From positions 3,519,144-3,583,143 of the forward strand of contig NC_049996.1 in NCBI RefSeq assembly GCF_000003815.2: a stretch of 64,000 bases of DNA. The letters are read 5' to 3'. Under the pieces are notes generated by a model, which saw only the letters and a program-made list of their open reading frames with translations, was not told where the DNA came from and ran no database searches. The position numbers and the translations under genes are program-made. Shown piece after piece: positions 7,169 to 59,952 of this stretch. The stretch comes from Branchiostoma floridae. Lineage: Eukaryota; Chordata; Leptocardii; Amphioxiformes; Branchiostomatidae. Numbering within the stretch: position 1 is the stretch's first letter; each line of letters opens with the position of its first letter.

Positions 7169-8407
7169 CTAGAAAGGCCGACATTTGCTTAAGAGCAAAT
7201 ACAGCATATTTCAGCCATACCCCTTCCCACGCAACATTGGACTGTTCCAAATCACCCCTGCGCAAAAATGGAACATCCTCTTAACAGTACATTATCCCCC
7301 AAAGTGGACTGGTATTGTGAATTGATTCCAGGTAAAAACAGAGCTTGCTTCTATTTTTCAGAAAATGACAATAATCACACCTTCCATTCAGAAAATTTTC
7401 ATCATGACTGAAAATTGTTGAATGACTTCATGTAATGTCATTAACAATTTTCAGTACGATAACTAGGTGTAAGTTTAAAAAAAGTATAAGCTCCTTGTGA
7501 TGTGGGTACATTTATTATTGCAATGAACTTTTTTTATTCAAGTAGGGCATACGATTTAATAATTATCAAGCAGGTGCAGGTACTGTAGGAGCGTTTGTTT
7601 TCTTCAAGCTGTAAAACTGTTAAACTGTTTTACTTTGTATGCAATCAGCCATCGAGCGTATTCTTATTTTAGTTTAACAACTTCCTGCCAGACCCGGAAG
7701 ATACGATTGAACCTTGTTCGAGGATTTATTTTCGTCTGTCTGGTCAGTCTGTTCATACCCTCGAGGCTGGCGCTGAGAGTGTTTTATTGGGCTGAAACTC
7801 TGGCAGTTTAAAGTTACTTACAATTTAAATGTTCAAAGTTTATGTCAAACAACAACAGCACTAGGAAATGTGGCCACTATAGACAGGTGGTCACTATAGA
7901 GAAAATGCTGATCTATTGACTAGGAGCCATACGTTACACATGATCATTAATCATATAAACATTGCACAGGTAAGCCAATTGTTTAGATGTACAATTAAGT
8001 TCAAATAATTCTGAAGAGAAATATTGATGAGAAAATAATCATTCTCGCCACTGTCTAACTTATAATTACGTATCAAAACTAAACGCAGATTTTCTAACTA
8101 ACGCACCTTTCGCCGACTTCATCAAAGGACCGCCGGCTATCAATCAAACACGGCTGTTGATTAGACTTAGAGTTTCAAACAGCCATGTGCTGTGTGCCAG
8201 TTGACAGCGAACTTCATGCTACGTGATGTTTTACATTGCTTGGACCTTCTTTCCTACAGCGGTGCTTCTACAAAATATTTAGACTGTAACACTGAGTCCC
8301 ACATGTTTTATGGAATAGAATTTGACGCAGAACAGCGTTTTTTGCTGGGTATTTTTCTTGAAACATGTTCGTGGGAATATCAGCGAGGCGGCGACGTAGG
8401 GATATCA

Positions 8408-9729
8408 GACCGTCAACAAAAGTCGCACGGCGGCTAACGGCGCATCGAAGATACTAGCGCTATAAATAAGCGCTTCAACTAAGGATGGCAACCCGTACAA
8501 CATTTTTGTATACTGTTGAGCTAAGTAAAGTTTGTTGTTTATGAGGTTTTAGTTGTCTTTGAAGCTTTGACCCGAAATATTTTAAAGTCAAATTGCTGAA
8601 GAGAAGTAAGTGACTGCTACGATTATCGTAGATATGGCCCAAAAAAACTGATAAAAGAAGCCTTCTCAATAGTCTAAAATGCAAGAGCTTCCGGGGGGGC
8701 TTCGCCCACCTGGGTCCCCCCCCCCCACAGTGGCCCTGCCCCTGGACCCCGCCAGGGACATTCGGCGGCCCCCGGACCCCTGTCCGACGCTTTGAAAAAA
8801 TCCTGGCGAGAAGTCTGTACGACCTGAGTCTTCAAGATAACGTATTGTGTGGTCCCGCTTATGAATATTAATTAGCCTTCGCTTTCCTCTTCGCTGATTG
8901 GCTGAACCATTAATTGAATTAACTCTTCCTGCCGGCTAGACGCAGGTGCAGATGTCGGCTCTGTGGGGTGAACGTCCGAAAGATCATGGCATGGAGAACG
9001 AAAGAAAACCAATTTCCCCTAAAAAAGTGCTGTAATTAAGCCTTTTACAGTACTTTATGCCAAAAATTTTACTTGGATCATTTTACCAACTATATTATGC
9101 CTATCCATACCAAATGTTACTCATACCAGGGTACAGGGGTGCAAAATATACCGTTATAAGACCGTCAACAACAGTCGCACGGAGCTAACAGCGCAGCGAA
9201 AATACCATCGCTAGCGTTTCAACTTCGGATAACAAGTTATAAGTACTGTTGAACTCAGTAACGTTAAAGTTTGTTTTTAGTTGCCTTTGACGGTTTGACC
9301 TGAAATAGTGTTACGCTAAACTCCTGAATAGAAGTTAAGTGACTGCTGCGATTATCATAGATATGCCCCTAAGAACTGATACAATATAAAGCCTTCTGAA
9401 TAGTGTAAAATGCGAGAGCCTTAGGCGGGCTTCGCTCCCCCTGGCGGGAACACTGCTATATACGGGATCATGAGGCCCCGCTTATGAATATTAATTAGCC
9501 TTTGGCCTCCTCTTCGCTGATTGGCTAGGTCTTTGATTCAATCAACTCTCCGGCTGACGCGCACAGGTGTGGCTCTGTGTGGGGTCACGGAAGGTCACGT
9601 CAGGAGGCCAAAAGAAAACAAATTTCCCCTCAGAAAAGTGCCAAAATTAATCATTTTAAAGTTGTTTATGTCAAAAATTTGACTTGAATCTTGTTACCAA
9701 GTATCCAGTGCCTATCTATACCAAATTTC
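8408..9729 (-). repeat. internal 752-bp direct duplication within the element
   Basis: Two diverged units begin GACCGTCAACAA at 8408 and 9160. Both then carry a TCGCACGG block, a CGATTATC block, an AATGC(A/G)AGAGC block, GCTTATGAATATTAATTAGCC and a CTATACCAAAT end. The second unit runs into the gap. The same pair is present in copies B and C, so the duplication predates the spread of the family. Confidence 0.75.
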
Positions 9730-10304
9730 NNNNNNNNNNNNNNNNNNNNNNNNNNNNNNNNNNNNNNNNNNNNNNNNNNNNNNNNNNNNNNNNNNNNNNN
9801 NNNNNNNNNNNNNNNNNNNNNNNNNNNNNNNNNNNNNNNNNNNNNNNNNNNNNNNNNNNNNNNNNNNNNNNNNNNNNNNNNNNNNNNNNNNNNNNNNNNN
9901 NNNNNNNNNNNNNNNNNNNNNNNNNNNNNNNNNNNNNNNNNNNNNNNNNNNNNNNNNNNNNNNNNNNNNNNNNNNNNNNNNNNNNNNNNNNNNNNNNNNN
10001 NNNNNNNNNNNNNNNNNNNNNNNNNNNNNNNNNNNNNNNNNNNNNNNNNNNNNNNNNNNNNNNNNNNNNNNNNNNNNNNNNNNNNNNNNNNNNNNNNNNN
10101 NNNNNNNNNNNNNNNNNNNNNNNNNNNNNNNNNNNNNNNNNNNNNNNNNNNNNNNNNNNNNNNNNNNNNNNNNNNNNNNNNNNNNNNNNNNNNNNNNNNN
10201 NNNNNNNNNNNNNNNNNNNNNNNNNNNNNNNNNNNNNNNNNNNNNNNNNNNNNNNNNNNNNNNNNNNNNNNNNNNNNNNNNNNNNNNNNNNNNNNNNNNN
10301 NNNN
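9730..10304. other. assembly gap (575 N)
   Basis: By alignment with copy B, the missing part corresponds to about 11137-12040, the 163-bp tandem array. ORFs spanning the gap are meaningless. Confidence 1.
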
Positions 10305-10495
10305 TTAGAGGCAGATATGAAAAAAACTGAGAAAAAAGCATCAAGGTATTGGCCCATTCTACCCCTGTGCCAAATTTCAGGTCATTCGGTCCAGGAACGG
10401 CGGAGATGAATCACTTTGAAGATTTGACAGGAGAAAGAAGAAAGAAACATTACGAATACAATATATTTCACCATACTATGTATGGCTGAAATATA

Positions 10496-10893
10496 ACAAC
10501 AGTACACATCATATACAACCCCTTCCCCCTCAGTAGTGGCAAGGTGAGTGGCAAGGTATTGGACCTAGCTGAGCAGAGCATGGGGCATTAACAAACATAC
10601 AGGTTGACACATAAAAACATGTAACATACATTCATTCCTGCATCTTAATGCTAACTGACACTTGATGGTTGGGACATCTGTTTCAAATTTGATGTTTTGG
10701 CAAACAGCCCTCATCCTAGGGGACCAACTGTTGTCTTGGGTTAATGTTACCACTGACCCAGTTTTTCCACAATTAGCAAGGAAATTTCATAAGAGGCCCA
10801 ACAATCCTTTCTGTACTTATTAGGCCTGACTGGAAGTATAACCAAAGAGAACATACTGTGTTCATATGTCAAAGAACTGTGGATGCTGGTTGT
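10496..10893. other. spacer between copies A and B
   Basis: Roughly 400 bp of unique-looking sequence separates the facing 5' ends of the two elements. No gene is visible. A phrase CACTGACCCAGTTTTT here recurs right of copy C (about 17994), which hints at an older repeat at the insertion locus. Confidence 0.4.
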
Positions 10894-13800
10894 TATATTT
10901 CAGCCATACATAGTATGGTGAAATATATTGTTATATTTCAGCCATACATAGTATGGTGAAATATATTGTATTCGTAATGTTTCTTTCTTTCTTTCTTTCT
11001 TTCTTTCTCCTGTCAAATCTTCAAAGTGATTCATCTCCGCCGTTCCTGGACCGAATGACCTGAAATTTGGCACAGGGGTAGAATGGGCCAATACCTTGAT
11101 GCTTTTTTCTCAGTTTTTTCATATCTGCCTCTAAAATGATTTTATTGAGATTTTTTGGTCAATTTTAGACCAAAACTGTATATTTTGGCCCCTGTACCCT
11201 GGTATTACAACCAAATGAGCTGAAATTTGACAGAGATGTGCCTTGATAATGCTCCCATATAAATTCGATAACACTTTTGGTGTACAGTACAACAAAATGC
11301 TTATTTTTGCGATTTTTTGACCAATTTTTGACCAAAAAAGGACACTTTTGGCCCCTGTACCCTGGTATTACAACCAAATGAGCTGAAATTTGACAGAGAT
11401 GTGCCTTGATAATGCCCCCATATAAATTCAATAACACTTTTGGTGTGCAGTACAACAAAATGCTTATTTTTGCGATTTTTTGACCAATTTTTGACCAAAA
11501 AAGGACACTTTTGGCCCCTGTACCCTGGTATTACAACCAAATGAGCTGAAATTTGACAGAGATGTGCCTTGATAATGCTCCCATATAAATTCGATAACAC
11601 TTTTGGTGTACAGTACAACAAAATGCTTATTTTTGCGATTTTTTGACCAATTTTTGACCAAAAAAGGACACTTTTGGCCCCTGTACCCTGGTATTACAAC
11701 CAAATGAGCTGAAATTTGACAGAGATGTGCCTTGATAATGCTCCCATATAAATTCGATAACACTTTTGGTGTACAGTACAACAAAATGCTTATTTTTGCG
11801 ATTTTTTGACCAATTTTTGACCAAAAAAGGACACTTTTGGCCCCTGTACCCTGGTATTACAACCAAAATGAGCTGAAATTTGACAGAGATGTGCCTTGAT
11901 AATGCCCCCATATAAATTCAATAACACTTTTGGTGTACAGTACAACAAAATGCTTATTTTTGCGATTTTTTGACCAATTTTTGACCAAAAAAGGACACTT
12001 TTGGCTCCTGTACCTTGGTATTGCAATCGAATGAGCTGAAATTTGGTATAGATAGGCATTAGATACTTGGTAACAAGATTCAAGTAAAATTTTTGACATA
12101 AACAGCTTTAAAATGATTAATTTTGGCACTTTTCTGAGGGGAAATTTGTTTTCTTTTGGCCTCCTGACGTGACCTTCCGTGACCCCGCACAGAGCCACAC
12201 CTGTGCGCGTCAGCCGGAGAGTTAATTGAATCAAAGACCTAGCCAATCAGCGAAGAGGAGGCCAAAGGCTAATTAATATTCATAAGCGGGGCCTCATGAT
12301 CCCGTATATAGCAGTGTTCCCGCCAGGGGGAGCGAAGCCCGCCTAAGGCTCTCGCATTTTAGACTATTCAGAAGGCTTTATATTGTATTAGTTCTTAGGG
12401 GCATATCTATGATAATCGCAGCAGTCACTTAACTTCTCTTCAGGAGTTTAGCGTAACACTATTTCAGGTCAAACCGTCAAAGGCAACTAAAAACAAACTT
12501 TAACGTTACTGAGTTCAACAGTACTTATAACTTGTTATCCGAAGTTGAAACGCTAGCGATGGTATTTTCGCTGCGCTGTTAGCTCCGTGCGACTGTTGTT
12601 GACGGTCTTATAACGGTATATTTTGCACCCCTGTACCCTGGTATGAGTAACATTTGGTATAGATAGGCATAAGATAGTTGGTAAAATGATCCAAGTAAAA
12701 TTTTTGGCATAAAGTACTGTAAAAGGCTTAATTACAGCACTTTTTTTAGGGGAAATTGGTTTTCTTTCGTTCTCCATGCCATGACCTTTCGGACGTTCAC
12801 CCCACAGAGCCGACATCTGCACCTGCGTCTATCCGGCAGGAAGAGTTAATTCAATTAATGGTTCAGCCAATCAGCGAAGAGGAAAGCGAAGGCTAATTAA
12901 TATTCATAAGCGGGACCACACAATACGTTTACTTGAAGACTCAGGCCGTACAGACTTCTCGCCAGGATTTTTTCAAAGCGTCGGACAGGGGTCCGGGGGC
13001 CGCCGAATGTCCCTGGCGGGGTCCAGGGGCAGGGCCACTGTGGGGGGGACCCAGGTGGGCGAAGCCCCCCCGGAAGCTCTTGCATTTTAGACTATTGAGA
13101 AGGCTTCTTTTATCAGTTTTTTTAGGGCCATATCTACGATAATCGTAGCAGTCACTTACTTCTCTTCAGCAGTTTGACTTTAAAATATTTCGGGTCAAAG
13201 CTTCAAAGACAACTAAAACCTCATAAACAACAAACTTTACTTAGCTCAACAGTATACAAAAATATTGTACGGGTTGCCATCCTTAGTTGAAGCGCTTATT
13301 TATAGCGCTAGTATCTTCGCTGCGCCGTTAGCCGCCGTGCGACTTTTGTTGACGGTCTGATATCCCTACGTCGCCGCCTCGCTGATATTCCCACGGACAT
13401 GTTTCAAGAAAAATACCCAGCAAAAAAACGCTGTTCTGCGTCAAATTCTATTCTATAAAACATGTGGGACTCAGTGTTCCAGTCTAAATATTTTGTAGAA
13501 GCACCGCTGTAGGAAAGAAGGTCCAAGCAATGTAAAACATCACGTAGCATGAAGATCGCTGTCAACTGGCACACAGCACATGACTGTTTGAAACTCTAAG
13601 TCTAATCAACAGCCGTGTTTGATTGATAGCCGGCGGTCCTTTGATGAAGTCGGCGAAAGGTGCGTTAGTTAGAAAATCTGCGTTTAGTTTTGATACGTAA
13701 TTATAAGTTAGACAGTGGCGAGAATGATTATTTTCTCATCAATATTTCTCTTCAGAATTATTTGAACTTAATTGTACATCTAAACAATTGGCTTACCTGT

Positions 13801-14667
13801 GCAATGTTTATATGATTAATGATCAGTGTACTGAAATCATGTGTAACGTATGGCTCCTAGTCAATAGATCAGCATTTTTCTCTATAGTGACCACCTGTCT
13901 ATAGTGGCCACATTTCTATCACTGGACTGGAACTTGCGAAAACTGCTGTATTTTCTCCAGAGCAAATGTATGTGTTCCTAGTGCTGTTGTTGTTTGACAT
14001 AAACTTTGAACATTTAAATTGTAAGTAACTTTAAACTGCCAGAGTTTCAGCCCAATAAAACACTCTCAGCGCCAGGGTATGAACAGACTGACCAGACAGA
14101 CGAAAGAAATCCTCGAACAAGGTTCAATCGTATCTTCCGGGTCTGGCAGGACTGAGTTGTTAAACTAAAATAAGAATAGGCTCAATGGCTGATTGCATAC
14201 AAAGTAAAACAGTTTAACAGTTTTACAGCTTGAAGAAAACAAACGCTCCTACAGTACCTGCACCTGCTTGATAATTATTAAATCGTATTCCCTACTTGAA
14301 TAAAAAAAGTTCACTGCAATAATAAATGTACCCACATCACAAGGAGCTTATACTTTTTTAAACTTACACCTAGTTATCGTACTGAAAATTGTTAATGACA
14401 TTACATGAAGTCATTCAACAATTTTCAGTCATGATGAAAATTTTCTGAATGGAAGGTGTGATTATTGTCATTTTCTGAAAAATAGAAGCAAGCTCTGTCT
14501 TTACCTGGAATCAATTCACAATACCAGTTCACTTTGGGGGATAATGTACTGTTAAGAGGATGTTCCATTTTTGCGCAGGGGTGATTTGGAACAGTCCAAT
14601 GTTGCGTGGGAAGGGGTATGGCTGAAATATGCTGTATTTGCTCTTAAGCAAATGTCGGCCTTTCTAG
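10894..14667 (+). mobile_element. Helentron/HINE-like rolling-circle element, copy B
   Basis: This is the most complete copy, about 3.8 kb. The 5' end has a palindromic hairpin (TATATTTCAGCCATAC..GTATGGTGAAATATA) present twice in tandem (10894-10931 and 10932-10969). A CTTTCTTTCTTT tract and a 163-bp tandem array follow, then the internal 752-bp duplication, then a subterminal GTATGGCTGAAATAT (14616-14630), the hairpin ATTTGCTCTTAAGCAAAT (14636-14653) and the terminal CTAG (14664-14667). The 15-bp subterminal block is the exact complement of 10895-10909. No helicase or Rep coding sequence is present, so it would depend on an autonomous relative elsewhere. Confidence 0.78.
11137..12060 (+). 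repeat. 163-bp tandem array inside copy B
   Basis: Units start at TTATTTTTGCGATTTTTTGA at 11301, 11464, 11627, 11790 and 11954, with diverged units at both edges (about 5.6 units). The period is 163 bp, with one 164-bp unit caused by an extra A. Neighbouring units are almost identical, pointing to recent homogenisation. The repeated 94-106 residue minus-strand ORFs are by-products. Confidence 0.92.
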
Positions 14668-17600
14668 TATTCGTAATGTTTCTTTCTTTCTTTCTTTCTT
14701 TCTCCTGTCAAATCTTCAAAGTGATTCATCTCCGCCGTTCCTGGACCGAATGACCTGAAATTTGGCACAGGGGTAGAATGGGCCAATACCTTGATGCTTT
14801 CTTCTCAGTTTTTTCATATCTGCCTCTAAAATGATTTTATTGAGATTTTTTGGTCAATTTTAGACCAAAACTGTATATTTTGGCCCCTGTGCCCTGGTAT
14901 TACAACCAAATGAGCTGAAATTTGACAGAGATGTGCCTTGATAATGCTCCCATATAAATTCGATAACACTTTTGGTGTACAGTACAACAAAATGCTTATT
15001 TTTGCGATTTTTTGACCAATTTTTGACCAAAAAAGGACACTTTTGGCCCCTGTACCCTGGTATTACAACCAAATGAGCTGAAATTTGACAGAGATGTGCC
15101 TTGATAATGCCCCCATATAAATTCAATAACACTTTTGGTGTACAGAACAACAAAATGCTTATTTTTGCGATTTTTTGACCAATTTTTGACCAAAAAAGGA
15201 CACTTTTGGCTCCTGTACCTTGGTATTGCAACCGAATGACCTGAAATTTGGTATAGATAGGCATTAGATACTTGGTAACAAGATTCAAGTAAAATTTTTT
15301 GACATAAACAACTTTAAAATGATTAATTTTGGCACTTTTCTGAGGGGAAATTTGTTTTCTTTTGGCCTCCTGACGTGACCTTCCGTGACCCCGCACAGAG
15401 CCACACCTGTGCGCGTCAGCCGGAGAGTTAATTGAATCAAAGACCTAGCCAATCAGCGAAGAGGAGGCCAAAGGCTAATTAATATTTATAAGCGGGGCCT
15501 CGTGATCCCGTATATAGCAGTGTTCCCGCCAGGGGGAGCGAAGCCCGCCTAAGGCTCTCGCATTTTAGACTATTCAGAAGGCTTTATATTGTATCAGTTC
15601 TTAGGGGCATATCTATGATAATCGCAGCAGTCACTTAACTTCTCTTCAGGAGTTTAGCGTAACACTAGTACTATTTCAGGTCAAACCGTCAAAGGCAACT
15701 AAAAACAAACTTTAACGTTACTGAGTTCAACAGCACTTATAACTTGTTATCCGAAGTTGAAACGCTAGCGATGGTATTTTCGCTGCGCTGTTAGCTCCGT
15801 GCGACTGTTGTTGACGGTCTTATAACGGTATATTTTGCACCCCTGTACCCTGGTATGAGTAACATTTGGTATAGATAGGCATAAGATAGTTGGTAAAATG
15901 ATCCAAGTAAAATTTTTGGCATAAAGTACTGTAAAAGGCTTAATTACAGCACTTTTTTTAGGGGAAATTGGTTTTCTTTCGTTCTCCATGCCGTGACCTT
16001 TCGGACGTTCACCCCACAGAGCCGACATCTGCACCTGCGTCTCGAGCCGGCAGGAAGAGTTAATTCAATTAATGGCTCAGCCAATCAGCGAAGAGGAAAG
16101 CGAAGGCTAATTAATATTCATAAGCGGGACCACACAATACGTTTACTTGAAGACTCAGGCCGTACAGACTTCTCGCCAGGATTTTTTCAAAGCGTCGGAC
16201 AGGGGTCCGGGGGCCGCCGAATGCCCCTGGCGGGGTCCAGGGGCAGGGCCACTGTGGGGGGGACCCAGGTGGGCGAAGCCCCCCCGGAAGCTCTTGCATT
16301 TTAGACTATTGAGAAGGCTTCTTTTATCAGTTTTTTTAGGGCCATATCTACGATAATCGTAGCAGTCACTTACTTCTCTTCAGCAGTTTGACTTTAAAAT
16401 ATTTCGGGTCAAAGCTTCAAAGACAACTAAAACCTCATAAACAACAAACTTTACTTAGCTCAACAGTATACAAAAATATTGTACGGGTTGCCATCCTTAG
16501 TTGAAGCGCTTATTTATAGCGCTAGTATCTTCGCTGCGCCGTTAGCCGCCGTGCGACTTTTGTTGACGGTCTGATATCCCTACGTCGCCGCCTCGCTGAT
16601 ATTCCCACGGACATGTTTCAAGAAAAATACCCAACAAAAAACGCTGTTCTGCGTCAAATTCTATTCTATAAAACATGTGGGACTCAGTGTTACAGTCTAA
16701 ATATTTTGTAGAAGCACCGCTGTAGGAAAGAAGGTCCAAGCAATGTAAAACATCACGTAGCATGAAGTTCGCTGTCAACTGGCACACAGCATATGACTGT
16801 TTGAAACTCTAAGTCTAATCAACAGCCGTGTTTGATTGATAGCCGGCGGTCCTTTGATGAAGTCGGCGAAAGGTGCGTTAGTTAGAAAATCTGCGTTTAG
16901 TTTTGATACGTAATTATAAGTTAGACAGTGGCGAGAATGATTATTTTCTCATCAATATTTCTCTTCAGAATTATTTGAACTTAATTGTACATCTAAACAA
17001 TTGGCTTACCTGTGCAATGTTTATATGATTAATGATCAGTGTACTGAAATCATGTGTAACGTATGGCTCCTAGTCCATAGATCAGCATTTTTCTCTATAG
17101 TGACCACCCGTCTATAGTGGCCACATTTCTATCACTGGACTGGAACTTGCGAAAACTGCTGTATTTTCTCCAGAGCAAATGTATGTGTTCCTAGTTGTTT
17201 GACATAAACTTTGAACATTTAAATTGTAAGTAACTTTAAACTGCCAGAGTTTCAGCCCAATAAAACACTCTCAGCGCCAGGGTATGAACAGACTGACCAT
17301 ACAGACGAAAATAAATCCTCGAACAAGGTTCAATCGTATCTTCCGGGTCTGGCAGGAAGTTGTTAAACTAAAATAAGAATAGGCTTGATGGCTGATTGCA
17401 TACAAAGTAAAACAGTTTAACAGTTTTACAGCTTGCAATTGAAGAAAACAAACGCTCCTACAGTACCTGCACCTGCTTGATAATTATTAAATCGTATGCC
17501 CTACTTGAATAAAAAAAGTTCACTGCAATAATAAATGTACCCACATCACGAGGAGCTTATACTTTTTTAAACTTACACCTAGTTATCGTACTGAAAATTG

Positions 17601-17876
17601 TTAATGACATTACATGAAGTCATTCAACAATTTTCAGTCATGATGAAAATTTTCTGAATGGAAGGTGTGATTATTGTCATTTTCTGAAAAATAGAAGCAA
17701 GCTCTGTCTTTACCTGGAATCAATTCACAATACCAGTCCACTTTGGGGGATAATGTACTGTTAAGAGGATGTTCCATTTTTGCGCAGGGGTGATTTGGAA
17801 CAGTCCAATGTTGCGTGGGAAGGGGTATAGCTGAAATATGCTGTATTTGCTCTTAAGCAAATGTCGGCCTTTCTAG
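14668..17876 (+). mobile_element. Helentron/HINE-like rolling-circle element, copy C
   Basis: The copy starts directly after the CTAG of copy B at TATTCGTAATGTTTC and so lacks the 5' terminal hairpin. The rest is collinear with B: a (TTTC)n tract, a shorter 163-bp array (about 14853-15290, roughly 2.6-3.6 units), the internal duplication, the subterminal GTATAGCTGAAATAT, the hairpin ATTTGCTCTTAAGCAAAT (17845-17862) and CTAG (17873-17876) followed by T. The head-to-tail arrangement with B is what rolling-circle replication past a terminator can leave. Confidence 0.78.
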
Positions 17877-21900: not shown

Positions 21901-23915
21901 AGTCTTGTTACAACGTCTATTTTGAAAATATGCCATCTTGTTTTTTTTGCCCATCTTGTTTTTTTTTTGCCCTATCTCATTATTTTTGTAGTCTGCAGAG
22001 GATGTCATCCATAGAATTTACTTGCTGTGGCCTTAGTAACCATTCACCTTTACATGGACACAACCATATGAAAATCTGCTAACCCACCTGATTGTCGGAC
22101 ACCTTGAACGGCCGAAGAGCGCGGAACATCTCGTACCCTCCCCCGCCGAGGTATCCCCTGGTGAGGATCCCGTACGCTGGACTGAACGGGCTCGAGTTGA
22201 AGTCTCCGCACAGGATGTGCGGTTGGTCCACGCCTCCCGCAAACTTCACCAACTCGTTCATGGCCACAGAGATCTGTAGAAATTTTTTAACAAAAATGCT
22301 TCTGCTGTTCCAGAGAAAGCTGCTAGGGAGACGAAACATACACCACTTCTTCCTTACATCAAAGGCTATCAGCCCATTTAGACCATAGCATGTCCTGGAC
22401 AAAAGATACAAAAAACAGAATTTCTGCTGCAGTACCAAGGTCATAAACAGGGGGCCATAACTGGCCTTGACGTTCGTCTTTCCAAGACCTATCCAAATAC
22501 CAAATATTATGATCATAACCAATCCAGACTTAAGGTAAATTGGCATTTTGATCTTCCATTGTTTTCTTATTAATGAATTAAGAAAGAATTGAGCCGTAAC
22601 GAATATTGATAGATGGGCATGAAATATTTCTAAATCTAATTTTTGGGGAGCCAAATCGATGACGTCATCAGGTTTTATTGCCTCTAATATTATTTTTCTA
22701 TGACAAAATACAGCACTTTGGCACATAACACTGCAATGAAACTTCGTTTTTCGTTGCATAATGATGAAAGCTACAAACTCACGGTTGCGCAAATTGATAT
22801 CTAGTTATCTGTAGTAATTAGAAAATGTTTGTTTTCATATAATTAAAAAGATAATAATTCTTCATAACTACAGATCGTTAGTAGATATCAATTTGCGCAA
22901 CAGTGAGTTTGTAGCTTTCATCATTATACACATGAAAAACATAGTTTCATTGCACTGGTATGTACCAAAGTGCTGTATTTTGTCATAGAAAAAATAATAT
23001 TAGGGCAATAAAACCTGATGACGTCATCAATTTGGCTCCCAAAAAATCAGATTTAAATCTTTTTAATGCCCATCTATCAATATTCGTTACGGCTCAATTC
23101 TTTCTTAATTCATTAATGAGAAAACAATGCAAGGTCAAAATGCCAATTTAGCCAACCTAGATACCTTAATCTAGAATTATTCTGACCAAAATATGAAAAC
23201 ACAAACACACCAAAAACAATACCTCCATTCATGGACGTAATGATTACATTACATAATGTACTTTAGCCTGACATACCTGCAGAGACTGCACATCCACCTC
23301 CACATGCTGGGGGGCGCTTGGTATCAGTCCCATCCACCAGATCACATGTAAGGTCCCCACACTGACCTCACGACCCGTCTCCTTACAGCAAAGCTTACAC
23401 ATCATCATCACGCTAGACTTCTCCAAGTACTTGTAAACGTAAACTCTCTCCGATTCCGCCACATGACTCTTGATTAGTTCTTTGAACTTGGAGTTGAAGT
23501 CAAAGGAAGCAAAGTCCACGACACTAAACCTAGATGTCCGAAAAAACATTGCGACTCCTTCCGGAGTCCCAAGAACTTTCTCTTTGAATCTGTATCCATC
23601 GTAGCCTTGTTCTTGCATCATGGGTAAGAGGCTCTCGTTGTAGTAGGTTGTTCCAACTTCTTGTAGACAGACGATGTCGCCGTTAAGGTAGCGTAATTCC
23701 GCTTCTAGCTGTCGCTGGCGAGCGGACATCGGGAGGCATTCTTCGGGACAGTACGGGTACATTTGAGGCGTGACGTGACAGTCGGCTAGGATGTTGTAGG
23801 AAACGATGGAGAAGTTTTGGGACTGGTTTTCGACGGGGTCTTTGTCGTTGAGTGGACGGCGAAGAACTTTTCTGTTGAAGAATGCTTCAGAGCTAGTGTC
23901 TGTTGTTTGGTCCAT
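18969..23915 (-). CDS. PDE12-like: PDE12-like 2',5'-phosphodiesterase (EEP-fold nuclease), 4 coding exons
   Basis: Coding exons on the minus strand are 23915-23277, 22273-22088, 20107-20024 and 19172-18969. All junctions are GT..AG in phase 0 and give 370 aa. Motifs of the exonuclease/endonuclease/phosphatase fold: YNILAD (40-45), CLQEVG with the metal-binding Glu86, a TLHV block (188-191), CGDFNSSP (Asp237, Asn239) and PSDH (His359). The end resembles PDE12 (LKSAYAEV..CLDYIWYSS). PDE12 degrades 2',5'-oligoadenylate and trims mitochondrial poly(A). I chose the second ATG because an acceptor (TTTTTAACAG) lies eight bases before it. Compared with PDE12 the protein lacks the long N-terminal region with the mitochondrial presequence, and the usual NTHL block reads TLHV. 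It could be a cytosolic paralogue. Confidence 0.85.
19215..19515 (+). mobile_element. tRNA-derived SINE in the last PDE12-like intron
   Basis: A B-box (GGGTTCAAATCCCATGAC) lies near the head, followed by a body with CACTTCACCCAGGTATAAAA, CACAGTGGATATTA and TCAAAAAGGCTATGGGACC. A second, 5'-truncated copy of the body is at about 21375-21540. The two shared bodies and the pol III box support a SINE family. Confidence 0.6.
21375..21540 (+). mobile_element. 5'-truncated copy of the same SINE
   Basis: Shares CACCCAGGGGTCAAAATGGG, CACAGTGGATAACA and CTCAAAAAGGCTATGG with the element at 19215-19515 but lacks the tRNA-like head. It lies in the intron between the second and third coding exons of the PDE12-like gene. 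Confidence 0.55.
22536..23150. repeat. intronic long inverted repeat, arms about 265 bp
   Basis: The left arm (from TAAATTGGCATTTTGATC) and right arm (to GGTCAAAATGCCAATTTA) are complementary over most of their length, including a GATGACGTCATC block on each side and an inner TTGCGCAAATTGATATCTA pair around a loop of about 80 bp. It lies between the first and second coding exons of the PDE12-like gene. The arms differ by small indels, so it is an aged fold-back or MITE-type insertion. The transcript would form a long hairpin. Confidence 0.8.
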
Positions 23916-23989
23916 GTTGATTCTGTTAAAAAGATCCATACACAATTGAATAGTTTAAAGAGTTTAGTGCCAATGATACAACGAATGTA

Positions 23990-28445: not shown

Positions 28446-31151
28446 TTAAGATAGATTTCCAGCTTCAATGATAGCTTGAGACTGACCATGTCCTGTCTGA
28501 TCATGATCGCTGGTCACTACAGCAGCTGTGGTGGAGGATTCAGTAATGGTCTGAGACTGCCCCATTGCTTTGTACAGAGAATTTTGCATTGAGCTAGTCT
28601 GCCCTGAGCCATAAGATGGATTTTCAGCTTCAATGATAGCCTGACACTGGCCCTGCCCTGTCTGATCATGAATACTGGTCACTGCAGCAGCTTCGGTGTT
28701 TGTGCTTAACTGGCTTTGAGGCAGTCCGTCCTGTGCTATAAGTGGGACTTCTAGCATCAATGATAGCTTAAGACTGGCCCTTCTCTGATCATGACCACTG
28801 GCGGTGTTTGTGTTGGATTCAGTGATGGTCTGAGACTGACCCTGCCCTGTCTGATCATGACCACTGGTCACCACAGCAGCTGTGGTGTTTAAGCTGGATT
28901 CAGTGATAGCCTGAGACTGACCCTGCCCTGTCTGATCATGACCACTGGTCACTACAGCAGCTGTGGTGTTTAAGCTGGATTCAGTGATAGCCTGACACTG
29001 GCTTTGCTCTGTCTGATCATGACCACTGGTCACTACAGCAGCTGTGGTGTTTAAGCTGGATTCAGTGATAGCCTGAGACTGACCCTGCCCTGTCTGACCC
29101 TGACCACTGGTCACTACAGCAGCTGTGGTGTTTAAGCTGGATTCAGTGATAGCCTGAGACTGACCCTGCCCTGTCTGATCATGACCACTGGTCACTACAG
29201 CAAATGTGATGTTAGTGTTGGAGCCAGTGATAGCCTGAGATTGGCTCTGTCCTGTCTGATTATGTTGGCTCATGTTTTCATACTGGTGATCTTGACCACT
29301 AGTTACTACAGTAGCCGTGGTCTTTGGATTGGACTCAGTGGTGGTCTGAGACTGACCCTTCCCTGTCTGATCATGACCACTGGTCAAAATAGTAACTGGG
29401 GGTTGGTAAAAGGCGTTCGACACAAATTTAGAACGTTTGATCGAAGGAGGATTTCTGCCTTTCTTCTTGCACCAAATCACGAGAAAGATGACAACAATGA
29501 GAGTTACCATGATTGAACCAATTACAGATGAAATGATAACAGCTAAGTTCAGACTAGTACCGGATCCATCTGAAGTACCTTTGGTAGTAATTACATCTGA
29601 ATTTGGTGCCATAACTGTTAGATTTGTCATCACATCATCTGACAGTCCGGCAAATATCGAGTCAACATTGCGTTTGAAGTACCAATGATAGCGAGGAGTG
29701 ACAGTGCCATTGTTACAGTTGACTGGTAGTGTGGTAAGGGTCAAAGAAGTACCTGGGTGATTTGCTGTTGGACTAGAATTGCTTTCAGTATTGCCAAATG
29801 AATATGTTGACACTACAGATGAGCTGACTGGGAGTATGACAAAGGCCATAGTTGAGCCCGGAACATTGGGTGTTGGGCTAGTACTACTTTCTGTAGTACC
29901 GAGTGAAGATTTTGTAGATGAGCTGATTGGGGCTTTGATAAAATCATCAGCTGCAGGCGTTGATTTGGTCCGGTATTTACAGATCAGATCTTTGGGATCA
30001 ACATCTTTGAGTTTTTGCCCTAAGAGTTTGGTAGGTTCAGCACATGTTATCCGTGTCATAAATGAGTCGATCTGTTTTTGCATAATTTGCAGCATTCTAC
30101 AGTCACATCGCCAGGGGTTGTCGGCAATATGCAAATCAGGAACGGATCCCAAAATTTCATAATGTAACTCAGGAAGGGAAGATATCTGGTTGGAGGACAA
30201 CTCTAAATATGCGAGCTTGGGTAGATTTGAGAGTGCATCGGCCGTGATGCTGGTTATATTGTTGGAATGCAGGAACAACCGTTGGAGCTGCGGTAGATTT
30301 GAGAATTCACCCGTCTGAATTCTTGTAACCCTGTTAAAGGAAAGATTTATAAAATCAAGCCGGGATTGATTTGAGAATGTACCTGACTGGATGTGAGTTA
30401 ACTGGTTGCGCGCCAGTTGCAAACAGTAGAGGCCGGGTAGCTTTGAGAATGTACCAGCATAAATACTGGTTATCTTGTTGGAGCTCATGTGCAACTCTTG
30501 GAGGTTGGGTAGATTCGAAAACGTCCCAGACTGGATATTAGGTATCTGGTTATTGCTCAGATGCAAAATTTGCAGCTGAGGTAAATTTGAGAATACACCA
30601 GCCTGAATTACAACTAACTTGTTGGATCTCACATCCAAAATGCTGAGATTGGGTAGATATAGATGGGAGAACGTATCGGCCTGAATATTACGTATGCTGT
30701 TGGAGTTTAGCTGCAACTGTTTGAGCCCAGGCAGATGTCCGAATGTACTCGATTGGATGTGAGTTAATTGGTTGTTGGATAGATGGAGGGATTCGAGAGC
30801 GGGCAGAGCTAAGAATGCATCGGCTTGAATACTGGTTATCTTGTTATAGTTCAGGTACAACCGTTGTAGCTCGGGTAGATTTGAGAATGTACCAGCTTGA
30901 ATACTGGCTATCTTGTTAATGTTCAGATACAATTTTTCGAGCTTGGGTAGATTTGAGAATGTATTGGACGGAATGCCCGTTATCTGATTACTGCTCAAAA
31001 ATATCTGATTGGTAGATGTTGGGATCTGTGGAATACTGGTGAGCCCCTTGCGGGAACATCTGCAGCATGTACAGCTAGCTTCTGGCGTGTTGTGCTCCTT
31101 CATGATGATGGTGATGAGGAAAATTAGTATGTGTTGTAGCTTTCGTCCCAT
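28446..31151 (-). CDS. LRR transmembrane receptor with tandem-repeat tail (paralogue 1), 901 aa
   Basis: One coding exon. Signal peptide (MGRKLQHILIFLITII), a Cys-rich LRR N-cap, 12 LRRs of about 24 residues with the pattern LxxLxLxxNxIxxIxxGTFSNLP, and an LRR C-cap (NPWRCDCRM..CAEP..LIC). Then a Ser/Thr/Pro-rich stalk, a juxtamembrane module with CNNGT and YHWYFKRNVDS, one transmembrane helix (about 534-558) and a 340-residue tail. The tail consists of 27-residue units (VVTSGHDQTGQGQSQAITES) with YENM and YKAM. The LRR block is typical of cell-surface recognition or adhesion proteins; the ligand is unknown. I start at the second ATG because an acceptor (GGTGGTAG|GG) lies just before it and the paralogue starts at the same place. 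There is no TIR, Ig or kinase domain. Confidence 0.88.
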   Translation of the reverse strand: MGRKLQHILIFLITIIMKEHNTPEASCTCCRCSRKGLTSIPQIPTSTNQIFLSSNQITGIPSNTFSNLPKLEKLYLNINKIASIQAGTFSNLPELQRLYLNYNKITSIQADAFLALPALESLHLSNNQLTHIQSSTFGHLPGLKQLQLNSNSIRNIQADTFSHLYLPNLSILDVRSNKLVVIQAGVFSNLPQLQILHLSNNQIPNIQSGTFSNLPNLQELHMSSNKITSIYAGTFSKLPGLYCLQLARNQLTHIQSGTFSNQSRLDFINLSFNRVTRIQTGEFSNLPQLQRLFLHSNNITSITADALSNLPKLAYLELSSNQISSLPELHYEILGSVPDLHIADNPWRCDCRMLQIMQKQIDSFMTRITCAEPTKLLGQKLKDVDPKDLICKYRTKSTPAADDFIKAPISSSTKSSLGTTESSTSPTPNVPGSTMAFVILPVSSSVVSTYSFGNTESNSSPTANHPGTSLTLTTLPVNCNNGTVTPRYHWYFKRNVDSIFAGLSDDVMTNLTVMAPNSDVITTKGTSDGSGTSLNLAVIISSVIGSIMVTLIVVIFLVIWCKKKGRNPPSIKRSKFVSNAFYQPPVTILTSGHDQTGKGQSQTTTESNPKTTATVVTSGQDHQYENMSQHNQTGQSQSQAITGSNTNITFAVVTSGHDQTGQGQSQAITESSLNTTAAVVTSGQGQTGQGQSQAITESSLNTTAAVVTSGHDQTEQSQCQAITESSLNTTAAVVTSGHDQTGQGQSQAITESSLNTTAAVVTSGHDQTGQGQSQTITESNTNTASGHDQRRASLKLSLMLEVPLIAQDGLPQSQLSTNTEAAAVTSIHDQTGQGQCQAIIEAENPSYGSGQTSSMQNSLYKAMGQSQTITESSTTAAVVTSDHDQTGHGQSQAIIEAGNLS

Positions 31152-32834
31152 ATTGCCAACCCTACCACCAGAATGGAACAAGTATTAACAGGACTGAAAC
31201 TAGGCAATTTTTAAAAACCTTTTTTTTGCATATTTTACATGAGGTATTGTAATTCATGTGAACAAATAATGTTTGATCTCAAGAAACTGATCTATAGAAT
31301 TGAAAATAGCACCCCCACCCCTAAGTTTGACCGCATCTAATCACAACAGGAATTTCTTAATTTATTGTGAAAGGAAAAAAAAACGATACTGACATACCTC
31401 ATACCAAACCATCATGGCAAAATAGCAATTTGTCATGGAATTAAAATGGAAACAAAAAATGCCAGAGGAAGATACACTTTCTCCCCATTTTGTTTTATAC
31501 CTTGCTACAATTGATATTTTTAAAGGAAAAAAATCTTTGCACAAATCCTATTGCTTGCCATGATATGAGACACAGGGCAATATGAGTGCACCCGAAATTA
31601 AATGATACGAAATGGAACTAAATGAAATTAAATGAGCCAAAATGGAATTAAACGGAAATAAATGGAATTTACAGAAGATGCGAAATGGAACGAAATGTAC
31701 ATTCCATGTCGTTCATTTTCACACTTCAGCTTTCTGTACACCCCTTGAATGTATGTGTGTGTGTTTTGTAATGGCATAGAATTTTCTAATGACATAAGGC
31801 CACTATTACTATAGCAGTGATTTATTTGCCCCTGCATTACCCATAGAACCCCGCGTCTCCCAGCATGCGATAGGATCCGTCAAATGTCTATGATGACCAT
31901 TCCATAAATGTATGATAAGGCTGTACAAGCTCTGATCAGTTCTACCTTAAAATGTTTTCATACACTGCGTGACAAACAGTTCTAAATTAGTCTGAGTTTG
32001 GCCTATTTGCATATCAATATTGATCAATATGTATTTTTCACTCACTAGGCTCTGCGTTGCTTTTACATCAACAACACTAACCTCTAAACATCTTATCTAT
32101 TTATTCAGATATGTATTCACCCATAAACAAACTATGGGAAAGACAAAACAGGTGAAACTTCACCCGTTCAAGTTGTCTCCTACAAAATGATGGAAAAAAA
32201 TTGATGACAATACTGAAAACAATTCTAAACAAGAACAATAACTACTGATAATAGTGGTAAAGAATGATAATAATAATCATGATATCAACAACAACAGTTT
32301 ATTGGTTTTGCGCGATATACCGGTAATACCCAACTTCCGGTGACATGCCAAAAAAAACAAACAACCGAGCGTAATATGTAGAACCTTTCGGTTTTTACAG
32401 AAAAAATATTAGACTATGTGTTATCTGCTTCCATTCAGACAACCTCCAATGTTGGTGATACAATATAATTTTGAACCTGAATCGCTGATTTGAGCGCAAC
32501 ACAAGCTATATAGAAGGACACAAAATATTGCACGACAATTGTACATGGTACAATGTATGACAACAGCTAAACCAACGTGCAGCGTACATATTACTGTAAA
32601 TCATAGAATTTTCACACTGTTTTCAAATCCACCACGAACTTCTCACAACAGTGAACATGCGTTCTGTCTTGCAATGTGTTACTACATTATATAACTGTTT
32701 TACCTTCGAAGTCAAAGATACTGCACACTCTTGATTATTGCCATGTAAAGCGCCGCAGATCTAAATGAACTTTCAGTAATTTACAAGATATGCGATCTAG
32801 AAAATGAAGCATTGTTGAACAAAACGATACTTAC

Positions 32835-33914: not shown

Positions 33915-36484
33915 CTAGAAAGGCCGGTATTTGCTTAGGAGCAAATTCAGCTATTTTCACTCCGCTCTCCCTTTTATGCAAAAATGGACTTTTCCAAAAT
34001 TGAACTTGAAAAATCCAATGTGAGTACTGTACGGTAATCAAACTTTTATTTCTTTATTACAACACGCACACAGCATGCTAATGTTTCACACATTAACAAA
34101 GCAAGCACCATTTTACTTCAAGAAAAAAAAATTATGTCACAAACGGAAATTTTCTACAGATGCAACACGTTATGTGACCCTAAACGTTGGCATTACGTAC
34201 CCACAGCAGACAATAGCGTGGTTATGATTAAAGTTTTCCTGCTTATTTACACAAGGCAAGGGCAATTACTGCACTTATTCAAGGTTGTCACAAGCATAAC
34301 TAATCTTCATACAAGCAGACCTCTCCAAACAAACTGCACTACACTTTTAACTCTTTACCAAGATATGCTTATTAGCCGTTTTTAGCGAAGTGCAATTTTA
34401 AAAAAAATCCAATTGGATATCATGGCTGCTCTGCAATTACATTATCATTACAAATACATATAAATGTATGCACATTGTATTCAGACAAAAAGGATCGCAC
34501 TCTGTTTTTATACTTAGAGTTAATCAGCTAATACAGTATATTGATGAACAAAGCTAATTAGCGACTGTATGTTTGCACGGAGTCTGTTTTGCATATCTAA
34601 ATGTTTTGCATGCTTTTTGTCTGAAAAAAGGATGCAGCAATTGCAGTTATTATACGTCTGTTATAAACTTAACGTCCCATTTATTTTCCACATAAACTAA
34701 TCAGTTTATGATTATCTAATTATTCTGATTAACTGTTTGTAGTACAGTGCATTACTAAATTACACAGCATATACCATGACGTGGTGTCTGAAAAGTCATA
34801 AAAACTTATTCATGTCTGTCATGAAATACAATGTTTGAACTCATGGTTGGTATAATAATATCTCTAATTGTCACTTAGTTTACTAGTTACAATATTGTCC
34901 CAAATAGCCTAATCATACATAAAGCTGGTGTTTCTGTCACAGTAACGCTTCTTGTACGTGACTTTGCTATCCTCTCCTTGGTGTCTGTTGATGCCACCTT
35001 TGTAGCCAGTTGACTATTGTGTTCTCTGACAGGCCAGACTTTGTGGCATTAGTTGAGTTCGAGCACCCGACCAATAATGAATTTAGCACTGTCAAATTGA
35101 CACCCTCTATCAAGGCACAACCCCACCTGTCTGCACAACAGTCCTGGTGGTGTATCCTCTTCCTCCAGTAGAAAATAGAATAGAATACAATAATTAGTAT
35201 TTCCTTTGTGTAATTTCATGTACTGCCACCCAGAGTAAAAGGAAGATCCTTTTTGTTTGTTGATTAGAAAAAAAGCCACACCTGATTACATATATTCTTG
35301 TACAACCAACCTGAATGGACAATTCACAACATAGTGTAACGTTTGTACTAGTAGATTTGCCCTTGAAAATCTGTACTATCATATAACGTTACTATGGAAG
35401 AGAACTACTGTACACTTTTCACTGATAATTAGTAGAATCATATCATAATGTTTAATTAGTAGAATTGTAAGATATACTCTGTATTCTTTCTTTTTTCGGT
35501 GCAGTTTAAAGTTGGCCATACAAAATTGACTGTCCTTTTTGTCGTGTCAATAAAGCTTGATGATACAATACTAACGTTAGTACTGTCTCATCAGTCACTG
35601 CAAAGCGCAACAATATTCCATGCATGCGCTCCCACTTACCGCGGCATTCTGACGCTACGGTATCGCTTATCCAGACACTCTAAACGTGGGTAAATCAAAC
35701 AAAAACTACACAATAACGACGACAAGTTACACAAATTTGTTACTGCGTTTGTGTATTGTTGCCAATTTTAAGATAAACAGTACAATTTTTCACTTACTTT
35801 TAACGGACTTCTTCCCGGCGACATATATGTACTCCCAGCCGCTAAGTTGAAAAACCCTTCCTCATTGGCTGTACCCGAGCTGACCAATCAGGTCATCGCT
35901 TCCGCTAAGTGTCGGGCGCATATTGGTTCCCTTCTAAATTCAATTAGCCACAATGCACAGCTGCAGGTAAACAGCTTACGTCACGCGCGGAAACGTCCAT
36001 AACCATATATGGTGCAACGGACGCACGTGCAAACGTGACCATATATGGTTACACGCGCGAAACGCGAGCTCGGTGAAAATATGCGTAGATACCCCACCAA
36101 ATTGGCTTTTAAATGATTTTGAAGTGACGATTGGCCAAAAATAATACCGGGGTCCTTTTAATAAGTATCTCACGCAGTATCATACCAACTTTCAAGTCAT
36201 CTGGACGTAATACCTGGGCACGGGAGACATGAATATACAGCCGGGCCAGAAAACGACCTTAAAACATCCCTAAAATCATTGTAAAGGTATCTATCAAGAA
36301 AATGAGAAAAACGGGTCTGGGTATTGGCCCACTGTACCCTTGCGCCAAATTTCAGGCCATTTGGTCCAGGAACGACGGAGAGGAATCACTTTAAAGGTCG
36401 CGACAGGAGAAAGAAAGAAAGAAGAAACCGTATGAAAACAATATTTTCACTCGAAGCGTACCTACGGTACGCGGAGTGAAAATA
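33915..36484 (-). mobile_element. Helentron/HINE-like element, diverged copy D
   Basis: Same orientation as copy A. The 3' end is CTAG (33915-33918, complement) with the hairpin ATTTGCTTAGGAGCAAAT (33929-33946); its loop differs from A-C but both stem arms are kept. The 5' end at 36484 is a hairpin TATTTTCACTCCGCGTACC..GGTACG..AGTGAAAAT. The inverted block CGGAGTGAAAAT/ATTTTCACTCCG takes the place of the GTATGGCTGAAATAT pair of A-C. A GAAAGAAAG tract and the AAATTTCAGGCCATTTGGTC block are shared with the others, while the middle is largely different. It has no transposase ORF. Confidence 0.7.
36003..36048. promoter_or_regulatory. two perfect CArG boxes (CCATATATGG)
   Basis: CCATATATGG at 36003-36012 and 36039-36048, 36 bp apart, within element D, flanked by ACGT-containing repeats and a GCGCG pair. 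The motif fits the serum response factor consensus CC(A/T)6GG. Function is not shown; there is no adjacent gene start. Confidence 0.4.
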
Positions 36485-36729
36485 ATTAAGTGTTTTGCGA
36501 GATACAATAGTAAATATGCGTGTGAAATGCATACGTTTTGTTTTGAGATTTTGTTGATTGTCTGGTCTCGATATTTTAATATTAACATTTTCACGTTGTT
36601 TACTCCACGTTGCCTTTGAATATTTTAATGCTATCATATGAGTTTTGCGGAAAAAAATCTTAGGGTATCATTCTATGTGGGGCCTGAATTTGTTTCAATC
36701 GCTCTTCTTGACACTGCGAAATAGGTTCA

Positions 36730-41200: not shown

Positions 41201-43613
41201 CATCCGGCAATGCCTGGCTAACAAGACCGTGTACATGCAAGGTATATATCAGTAGTGTTCTAGTGGTCAGCAGTTCTAGAGTATCAATACTATTATAGCT
41301 ACTTGTAGATAGTTGGAAGTACGTGTAAAGTCTAGGGGTACCGGTACAATACCGTTTTTTCTTAATGGACCGGTCCAGGAAAACCGGACCTGAAAAATTC
41401 TGTGGACCGGATAATGAACCTATTGGAAAATGAACACATACTATGATCAGCCATTCACACGTTTCGGGGCTTACCGGTCGAGGACAATAACAAGAACGAA
41501 GTACTTAGAGTATATATATTGAAGTTTTACAGCCAATAATACAAAGGTAGTTGTCCTTGTAGGATTTTAAAACGCCAGTTGGAGTCGAATACTCAAAAAA
41601 GACTTCTTTGTTGCGAACTGGATCATTGTTTTGAGTATCGTCCCTTCACAACTTTTCACATGCTGAATCAGGTCCAGGTCCAGGTCCAAACTGGGACCTG
41701 ATCATCTGGACCTGAACCGGACCTGGACCTGAAGTTTCATTCTGTATCGGCACCTACCCCTAGCTAACGTTCACTGTGTTGACTTAACCTTCGCAGGGAA
41801 GATTCTATTGTCAGAGCTGTGTGATTGTATAACTCGGGAAGTCTTGGGTGGATGATATTCTGTACTAATATGCTCGTACGTGTTGACAAGGGTAACAAAC
41901 GCCCCCTAGTCTCTTTTAATACGGTGCTGCAGTGGAACTTCCGGTTTTGATATCTATCCATATTTGATGCCATCCATATAATCAAATAAGCATGGCCTAA
42001 CATATCGTATTCAAATTTTATAAATGTTCAACGGCAACATATTTTCATATATGTTTCAAACATGTTTCTATATCCTAGGTGACTCTACCATTAGGCAATG
42101 GTGCGAGCGTTTGCAGAAGGTTGTACCGCTGCACAACGACGACAGAACCATGGATTCTGATGGTTTGCCAATCTTTTCTTTAAGACTTACTAGGACTCTT
42201 TTGGTCAACAACACGTTTTCGAATAAGCAGCATGTACAACGGTGTCCTGGATACTTTCTTTTTCTGACAAAGCCAAAAAATTGACATTTAACCTTATCCA
42301 GACTGGGCTTTTTGGCATTCCCTTTCCTGGGTGGGGGTGGGGCTCATTTGCCCCCCCCCCCCTTTCGTAATTTCAAAACGGCTTACTGTACGATCATCAA
42401 ATTGACAGAAAGTGATGTGCTCATTAAGGTTTTTATTTCTGAAATTTTGATATCGTTATGACGTAGCATGACGTAATTATGACATCTTTGATTGACTTTA
42501 TTTGCTAAATCTGGGAATTCCCATAATACCAAAAGAAATCACACAAAATGTTAACACTAAAGGGTTTCTTATCAATAGTTAAGTCTTCTAAGACTTTTGT
42601 TGTGAAAGGCCAACTTCATGACGTCAAAATGACGTCATGAAATGACGTCATATGTGTTTCAGCTATCACTTTCAATCCGCCATCTTGGATCATCAACCTA
42701 AAATGTCTAAGTATTGATACATGTTTGTCAACATATATCCCCAAAGCCCCACAGAAATGGATCATGGATTGAAAAACGTTCCCATGAATGTTTTTTTTGT
42801 AAGAAAATACAAAATTATAGTAAAATCCGATCAAAAATAAGCTGATTATACTTCTTATCATGATACGGTCGGCCATCTTGGATTCTGACCGATTACGTCA
42901 TATCATTAGCATTAAATTCACCCCCGTGAACTACACGACAGGGCGTCTTTTCCAACTTGGGACCTAAGCCTAAACGGGAGGCTTAGATACATGCGACGAT
43001 CCAAAGAATGCCTTCAATTTTCAATCGTTTGATGAATGAGACAACGCTGTAAGGAAGATGACTAACCCGTAATTGGTACATTTTTGTTGCAGTTTTTCAA
43101 GTAAGTCACAACCTCCAGTGGAACATCTCTGTTCGCTTCCGGTTCCATCACCTTCCAGTACAATTACGAGCTTGGGTAAATTTTCATGGCTACCATTACA
43201 CTGTTGATGAGCTAGACGCCGCCCAAGGAGGCCCAAATATGGTGATAGTCCTAAGTTTGTGGTCCCACTTTACGAAAGAGCCACTGGACATGATTCGATC
43301 TCGTCTGTACGCCATACGGGGCGCCATACATCGTCTCCTGCGCAGGAGTCCCGGCACGCGAGTTTTCGTGAGAACTGGGACAACGCGACAACACAAGGGA
43401 GGACTGTTGGAGTACTACCTGCTAAATAGCGACTGGCTAGCTTACGAAATCACGGAGGCGATACGAGAAATATTCCGGGAGGATCCAGACGTGGTCGTGT
43501 TGGACACGTGGGACATGAGTGTTTGTCAGCCGGGGGAAGACAACGTTCACCCAGATCAAACAATGGTGGACAATCTACTTAACAGGCTGTTGTCTCATAT
43601 CTGCCCAAACTAA
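38202..43613 (+). CDS. NXPE-like: NXPE-family protein (neurexophilin + PC-esterase domains), 6 exons, 541 aa
   Basis: Exons 38202-38267, 38875-39282, 40267-40580, 41009-41241, 42079-42162 and 43093-43613 join with GT..AG borders and matching phases (0,0,2,1,1) into 542 codons including the stop. The N-terminus (ATGVLIMISM..AWWIFYL) is a signal anchor, broken by intron 1. Residues about 60-160 are the neurexophilin-like domain (YGGDFFRVRL, DHCNGTYTVQFPLYW); LVHPSEAVKVL follows. The C-terminal GDSL/PC-esterase-like domain starts at GDSTIRQW with the nucleophile Ser, then VIVLSLWSHFT, and ends with D-x-x-H in EDNVHPDQ. Length and order are typical of NXPE proteins (about 550 aa), type II Golgi/ER proteins thought to modify glycoproteins. 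An AATAAA lies at 43743. It is flanked on both sides by the LRR paralogues. Confidence 0.92.
41332..41763. mobile_element. MITE in NXPE-like intron 4
   Basis: Ends CTAGGGGTACCGGTACA and TGTATCGGCACCTACCCCTAG are inverted repeats. Inside, clusters of GGTCCAGGTCC and GGACCTGGACC are themselves mutually complementary. About 430 bp, no ORF. Confidence 0.65.
42619..42650. promoter_or_regulatory. three TGACGTCA (CRE) octamers in 32 bp
   Basis: Perfect palindromic cAMP-response elements at 42619-42626, 42630-42637 and 42643-42650 in NXPE-like intron 5, with looser ATGACGTA sites near 42460. They would bind CREB/ATF dimers. The same octamer is frequent in other repeats of this window, so it may be part of a repeat rather than an intronic enhancer. 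Confidence 0.4.
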
Positions 43614-48639: not shown

Positions 48640-48649
48640 GGTTGGCAAC

Positions 48650-59069: not shown

Positions 59070-59952
59070 GTAAATACACTGTTTTCTATGCAAAAGTAAG
59101 ATCTCCTCAAAGTCGTGTGCTTGTCGGGAACTTTGCTACAGAATTGGGTGTGCATTTGCTGATCAACCGGCCATTTATTTCAAATTTGTCTTGTAGTCAG
59201 ACAATATTTGACCCGGCTTGTTGTCGCCATAAGGCCATATCTTCCTCTGTGTGACCAACCTCCTTGGTGTGACATAGCGCTAATTAATTACTACTAATTA
59301 GTATGTACAAGGAACTCCAAACTGCACCTGCGTACCGAATTATAGTATCATTCTAGATCTGTGTAAAGCTTTGAACTATAACGTTATATCCTCGGCGAAA
59401 TTAAACTAGTAAATGCAGACTTGTCTAGAGCATAGTCGGGCTTCAAAATGGCGTCACCATTTTGAAGTGACGTCATGTATAACGTAACCCCGTTTTTGAT
59501 GACGTCACAGCTAGAGACCTGTTGTTATGCATAGTAAACGTCAGAGCGATGTACTTGGAGGTACAGTAATAAGGGAGGGGTGAAAAAAAACGTGAAAAGG
59601 TAATTTGCTGTTGTAAATTCTGTGACATATAGAACTATTGTAGAGTGGAATCCGTTGCCACAAAGTACTGTAGCGGAAACCTCTCAGCTCATTAGGTAGC
59701 TTTAGACAACGCTTACATGCAAAAGTTAGGTGTGACAGGTTGTTCGGTGCACTAGTCATATAACCAGCTTTTGCCTGCATATAATTGCTTTATCAAGTTA
59801 ATCTATGTCTTTATAACCCTTTTATTATGTCTTTTTCAGCTATAGAAATATGAATCCACGGTAGAAGATACTCTAACTACCATCTACCAACAAAGAACAA
59901 CTGAATTCTTGCTGAAATACTCGCAATGCATGTACTCCCATAAGGCATAAAT

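Follow-up and report, generated by a model that had tools for sequence, protein, structure and literature searches.

A probable Helentron/Helitron2-type rolling-circle element family in amphioxus, with one copy most likely nested behind the 5' hairpin of another

In a 64,000-nucleotide (nt) stretch of Branchiostoma floridae DNA (assembly GCF_000003815.2, NC_049996.1, positions 3,519,144 to 3,583,143; hereafter the window), we analyzed a repeat family at 7169-17876 that is probably a non-autonomous rolling-circle transposon of Helentron/Helitron2 type (HINE-like), moved in trans by a putative RepHel protein. A preliminary description of this DNA had listed three near-full copies. All three are real, with pairwise identities of 98.6-98.9%; overlooked were a diverged fourth relative and the nesting of one copy in another, and these two are the strongest evidence for the interpretation that the description itself had put forward.

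Copy c1 lies on the minus strand at 7169..10496, with its 3' CTAG at 7169 and its 5' start at 10496. Copy c2 is complete, occupying 3737 bp of the plus strand at 10931..14667. Copy c3, also on the plus strand, is in two pieces, its own 38-bp 5' hairpin unit at 10893..10930 and a stretch of 3209 bp at 14668..17876 that starts with TATTCGTAATG and terminates in CTAG. In alignments free of gaps and N, identity was 98.87% between c1 and c2 (2742 sites), 98.63% between c1 and c3 (2694 sites) and 98.84% between c2 and c3 (3193 sites), and over the terminal 120 bp at the 3' end both c1 (7288-7169) and c2 (14548-14667) show 99.2% identity to c3 (17757-17876). The three-way alignment agreed at 2647 of 2693 sites, the odd one out being c1 at 22, c3 at 15 and c2 at 9; the three copies are about equidistant from one another. 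The fourth relative, e4, was detected by blast of c3 against the window and runs on the minus strand from its 5' start at 36485 to its 3' end at 33915. Identity to c2 is 75% both over some 275 bp on the 5' side and over the final 84 bp; matches resembling the units of an internal array (see below) reach up to e4 base 375, and from there to base 2489 no match to c2 was found at E 1e-3.

Analysis of the 3' ends confirmed the earlier claim of CTAG followed by T: c1, c2 and c3 all terminate in TTTCTAG|T and e4 ends in GAATTTGCTCCTAAGCAAATACCGGCCTTTCTAG|TTAC, the base to the right of the terminus being T in four of four ends and the first two being TT in three of them. An 18-nt hairpin (ATTTGCTC/AAGCAAAT; 7-bp stem, 4-nt loop), previously placed 11-14 nt before the end, stops exactly 14 nt short of the terminus in each of the four elements (14636..14653 on the plus strand in c2). 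At the other end, the 5' hairpin of c1 and c2 contains ATATTTCAGCCATAC, the reverse complement of which is found near the 3' end, a match of 15 nt (in c2, 10933..10947 and 14616..14630, plus strand), while e4 carries TATTTTCACTCCGC at both corresponding places, a match of 14 nt (36471-36484 and 33952-33965, minus strand). The 3' member of these subterminal inverted repeats (subTIRs) leaves 37 nt to the terminus in both c2 and e4. Among 20,000 mononucleotide shuffles one equalled the 14-nt match of e4, and none of 18,910 random window segments did, these being what was left of 20,000 drawn once segments containing N or near e4 were discarded; both controls cover the e4 match only. When the subTIRs were crossed between the c and e4 families, the longest exact match dropped to 5-6 nt. 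Single-stranded DNA folding was applied to five stretches, namely the 5' and 3' ends of c2 and e4 and a decayed internal 3' end described below. The 5' ends gave z = -6.3 in c2, in keeping with the 5' terminal palindrome noted previously, and z = -6.9 in e4, and the 3' ends gave -3.9 and -3.6, respectively, with 0 of 200 shuffles as good in each of these four cases. The 5' end of e4 is unlike that of the c copies in sequence, yet it pairs with e4's own 3' subterminal repeat. Thus, in the two families the subterminal repeats stay in step with each other despite sequence change, which argues for a working pair of ends and places the 5' boundary near the hairpin.

Next to c2 the arrangement of the ends is unusual. 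A second 38-bp hairpin unit (10893-10930), identical to that of c2, directly precedes the c2 start, and the main piece of c3 follows the CTAG of c2 immediately, opening with TATTCGTAATG and having no hairpin. When 10893-10930 was joined to 14668 onward, the resulting sequence was identical to the start of c2 over 74 bases and to that of c1 over 59, and the junction fell at base 38. Of 49 cut pairs within 3 bases only three restored the c3 start, all of them one cut slid by a base, and a target duplication was seen in none of the 49. Judging from these junctions, c2 most likely inserted into c3 right behind the 5' hairpin of c3, in an event that added and removed no bases and that accounts for the duplicate 38-bp palindrome as well as for the absent start of c3. 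As a correction to the preliminary description, the 5' terminus of c3 would then be the first palindrome, split by c2 from the rest of the element. The empty site proposed there as a check is provided by this locus, with paralogous copies as the reference, and it bears no target duplication. Moreover, c2 and c3 are no closer to each other than either is to c1, consistent with two separate insertions. In Fusarium, self-insertion at the 5' end has been proposed as the origin of two-headed composites, and one copy lies 2 bp upstream of the 5' end of another (PMC5148889; this and the papers below are cited from the parts of their text that were available, unless stated otherwise). The amphioxus locus captures an apparent self-insertion exactly at the 5' terminus, the step proposed for rolling-circle elements with two heads.

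The assignment to the Helentron/Helitron2 type is supported by subTIRs of 15 and 14 nt that are matched within a family and unmatched across families, by hairpins at both ends, by a microsatellite and central repeats of about 160 bp and by one precise insertion without target duplication. The former statement that the family matches HINE/DINE elements point by point goes too far, the CTAG end being of canonical type and the TT target not plain. The 3' palindrome, at 14 nt in four of four ends, falls within the 8-35 bp from the end given for HINEs, the subTIRs of c1, c2 and e4 exceed the minimum of 11 bp, and the asymmetric terminal inverted repeat together with hairpins at both ends agrees with Helitron2. 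The single resolved site, that of c2, reads ATATTG^T, whereas Helitron2 is expected to insert between TTTT and T or C. Helitron2 and Helentron termini are similar (PMC5148889), so the ends do not settle the branch, and HINE membership proper is unproven. Several observations weigh against the assignment. CTAG is absent as a Helentron or HINE hallmark from the available text of PMC4067079, which mentions it once, for a Helitron-like 'proto-Helentron'. The 3' subTIR of c3 carries one substitution, reducing its exact match to 10 nt of 15. The sole empty site resolved, c2 in c3, is deduced from paralogous copies, and the target of c2 can be placed at TTG^T, T^G or T^A, none of these being clearly T^T. 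In addition, TTG precedes TTATATTTC in c1, c2 and c3 (TTAA precedes the e4 start), so that the boundary between target and element is uncertain by up to three bases, and an element start up to three bases earlier would mean that a little of the target was lost where c2 inserted.

The CTAG end with its 18-nt hairpin 14 nt upstream comes near the description of canonical Helitrons, which are characterized by CTAG/CTRR at the end and a hairpin some 11 nt upstream of it (PMC4067079, PMC4778049), and would suit a non-autonomous canonical Helitron (Helitron1) that terminates at CTAG and has unusual 5' hairpins; the flanks of e4, of which the left ends in AA and the right starts with TT, are likewise compatible with an A^T target. 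Nevertheless, we consider a Helitron1 origin unlikely, given that the elements start with TTATATTTC and not with 5' TC, that the one resolved target is not A^T, and that matched subterminal repeats have been described for the Helitron2/Helentron branch (PMC5148889, PMC4067079). The pair c2-c3 could also be read as a single rolling-circle concatemer produced by missed termination, with the doubled hairpin a separate local duplication, and head-to-tail order is indeed known in rolling-circle elements (PMC4067079, PMC7492417). A concatemer predicts CTAG joined to an element start, whereas the c3 piece picks up only after the hairpin; c3 is completed exactly, over 74 bases, by the additional hairpin in front of c2; and the identity of c2 to c3 (98.84%) is not above that of c1 to c2 (98.87%). 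On this junction and identity evidence we ranked the concatemer, which requires two events where nesting requires one, below nesting and regard it as quite improbable. A cut-and-paste element (similar to a miniature inverted-repeat transposable element, MITE, or a foldback) or an assembly artefact duplicating one element is very hard to credit: foldback elements can have palindromic ends, heterozygous assemblies can duplicate haplotypes, and c1 contains a gap, but the inverted repeats are subterminal and not at the extreme ends, no cut yields a target duplication, such that the MITE combination of terminal inverted repeats and target duplication is not found, c1, c3 and e4 all differ in their outer flanks, and the junction coincides exactly with the end of an element, a position for which a false join would have no preference.

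Elements of Helentron/Helitron2 type would depend on a RepHel protein encoded at another genomic locus. This enzyme would introduce a nick at the 5' hairpin and subTIR and displace one strand as far as the 3' hairpin with CTAG, after which the copy would be joined into a T-containing site without target duplication. Helentron proteins have been reported in Cephalochordata (PMC4067079). With HINE/DINE-1 elements (PMC4067079) the family shares the absence of coding sequence, palindromic subTIRs (12-15 bp in HINEs), the lack of target duplication, a 3' palindrome 8-35 bp from the end and, as in some HINEs, a microsatellite and central repeats; it differs from them in its CTAG end with hairpin spacing of canonical type, in its target, which is not plainly TT, and in its length of 3.2-3.7 kb with an old internal duplication. 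The order of parts resembles that of Cg_HINE/Pearl elements of bivalves (PMC7492417), i.e. subTIR, inverted repeat, microsatellite, array of about 160 bp, and 3' subTIR with palindrome, and the microsatellite plus 163-bp array recalls oyster HINEs in particular; the right-hand part exceeds 2 kb in amphioxus, in contrast to a short right flank consensus of 60 bp in bivalves. FoHeli elements of Fusarium, of Helitron2 type (PMC5148889), have similar asymmetric terminal inverted repeats, end hairpins and self-insertion at or near the 5' end, but end in ATTTT or CTCCTGT, prefer other targets and reside in a fungal host. Helraiser/Helibat, a canonical Helitron (PMC4778049), also ends in CTAG, its terminator being a palindrome 11 nt upstream, and differs in its 5' TC. 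It is rather doubtful, though conceivable, that the family represents a chordate lineage uniting Helentron-type palindromic subTIRs with a Helitron-type hairpin-CTAG terminator, akin to the oomycete Helitron-Helentron intermediate, and inserting at the base of its own 5' hairpin, with c2 in c3 as the opening stage of the cycle by which Fusarium Helitrons have been proposed to form composites. Elements of this kind are well known, and the c family and e4 add a member and not a new kind; apart from self-insertion, matched ends and array growth, the element is an ordinary genomic parasite. Our literature search, which did not include Repbase, where the family may be catalogued, returned no paper that names both amphioxus and Helentron and, judging by titles, none on HINEs in amphioxus; papers that mention amphioxus together with Helitrons were among the results, and the text of a paper on amphioxus transposons at opsin genes (PMC5802833) does not contain the word 'helitron'.

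The interior of the elements bears further repeats. The (TTTC)n tract of the preliminary description is present on the plus strand in c2 (10980..11008) and c3 (14679-14703). The 163-bp tandem array, also noted there, was found in c2 and c3, while its position in c1 is taken by a gap of 575 N (9730-10304). Two linked sites divide the units into types a and b; c2 has five full units of types a-b-a-a-b (11183..11998, plus strand) and c3 two of types a-b (14878-15203, plus strand), the arrays totalling 5.6 and 2.6 units, respectively. Copies with two and five units illustrate how a satellite-like array can expand inside a transposon. Diverged flanking units and two single units of e4 align to the same unit pattern, suggesting that e4 retains the unexpanded state of the array. 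The internal duplication reported as 752 bp exists as an old, diverged direct repeat in c2 (12031..13362, plus strand; approximately 12031-12612 versus 12643-13362), made of two blocks of 78% and 75% identity that lie 26 bp apart in the first unit and 130 bp apart in the second. Farther to the right, a decayed 3' end that has lost its hairpin was detected on the plus strand in c2 (13936..13981) and c3 (17149-17194) by nhmmer (E = 2.9e-5 in the window; fold z = 0.7); c1 lacks it through a 61-column gap. It may be a former terminus that was later bypassed, resembling the case of Helraiser, in which bypass of a palindrome-less end creates a new 3' end (PMC4778049). Unlike in Helraiser, the present 3' end of the amphioxus elements resembles the relic (75% over 44 bp) and is therefore not random new sequence. 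A candidate remnant 5' end behind the relic (TTTCAGCC, c2 position 3115) was set aside, an 8-nt match being too short to claim. A 54-bp stretch inside c2 (13862-13915) is 89% identical to 52867-52816 and may be a fragment picked up from another transposon.

No coding capacity was detected in the c elements, as had been stated previously. Behind the array of c2 the longest stop-free frame is 101 aa, close to the mononucleotide-shuffle mean of 98 and reached by 197 of 500 shuffles. The region 7169-17876 contains 36 frames of at least 70 aa, six of which cross the N gap; eight of the 36, including the longest N-free one (194 aa, spanning the c3 array), were compared with Pfam and gave no credible match; two hits scored 13.3 and 13.2 bits, where the cut-offs are 27 and 22, and were rejected as chance. 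In e4 there are 26 frames of at least 50 aa, and the longest stop-free frame, 115 aa, was reached by 50 of 500 shuffles (mean 91.5). An Rfam scan of the window gave no matches at the gathering score.

Elsewhere in the window, a frame at 23244-23954 on the minus strand has a Pfam match to endonuclease/exonuclease/phosphatase of 24.4 bits, the cut-off being 24.5. On the plus strand, 43062-43613 encodes an NXPE4-type C-terminal domain and 59944-61164 is a sulfotransferase-domain frame. Two long leucine-rich-repeat frames, at 28446-31184 on the minus strand and at 48617-52012 on the plus strand, are in opposite orientation with starts that look similar; both have tandem repeats of an 81-bp type in their tails, and by eye they look like an inverted gene pair.

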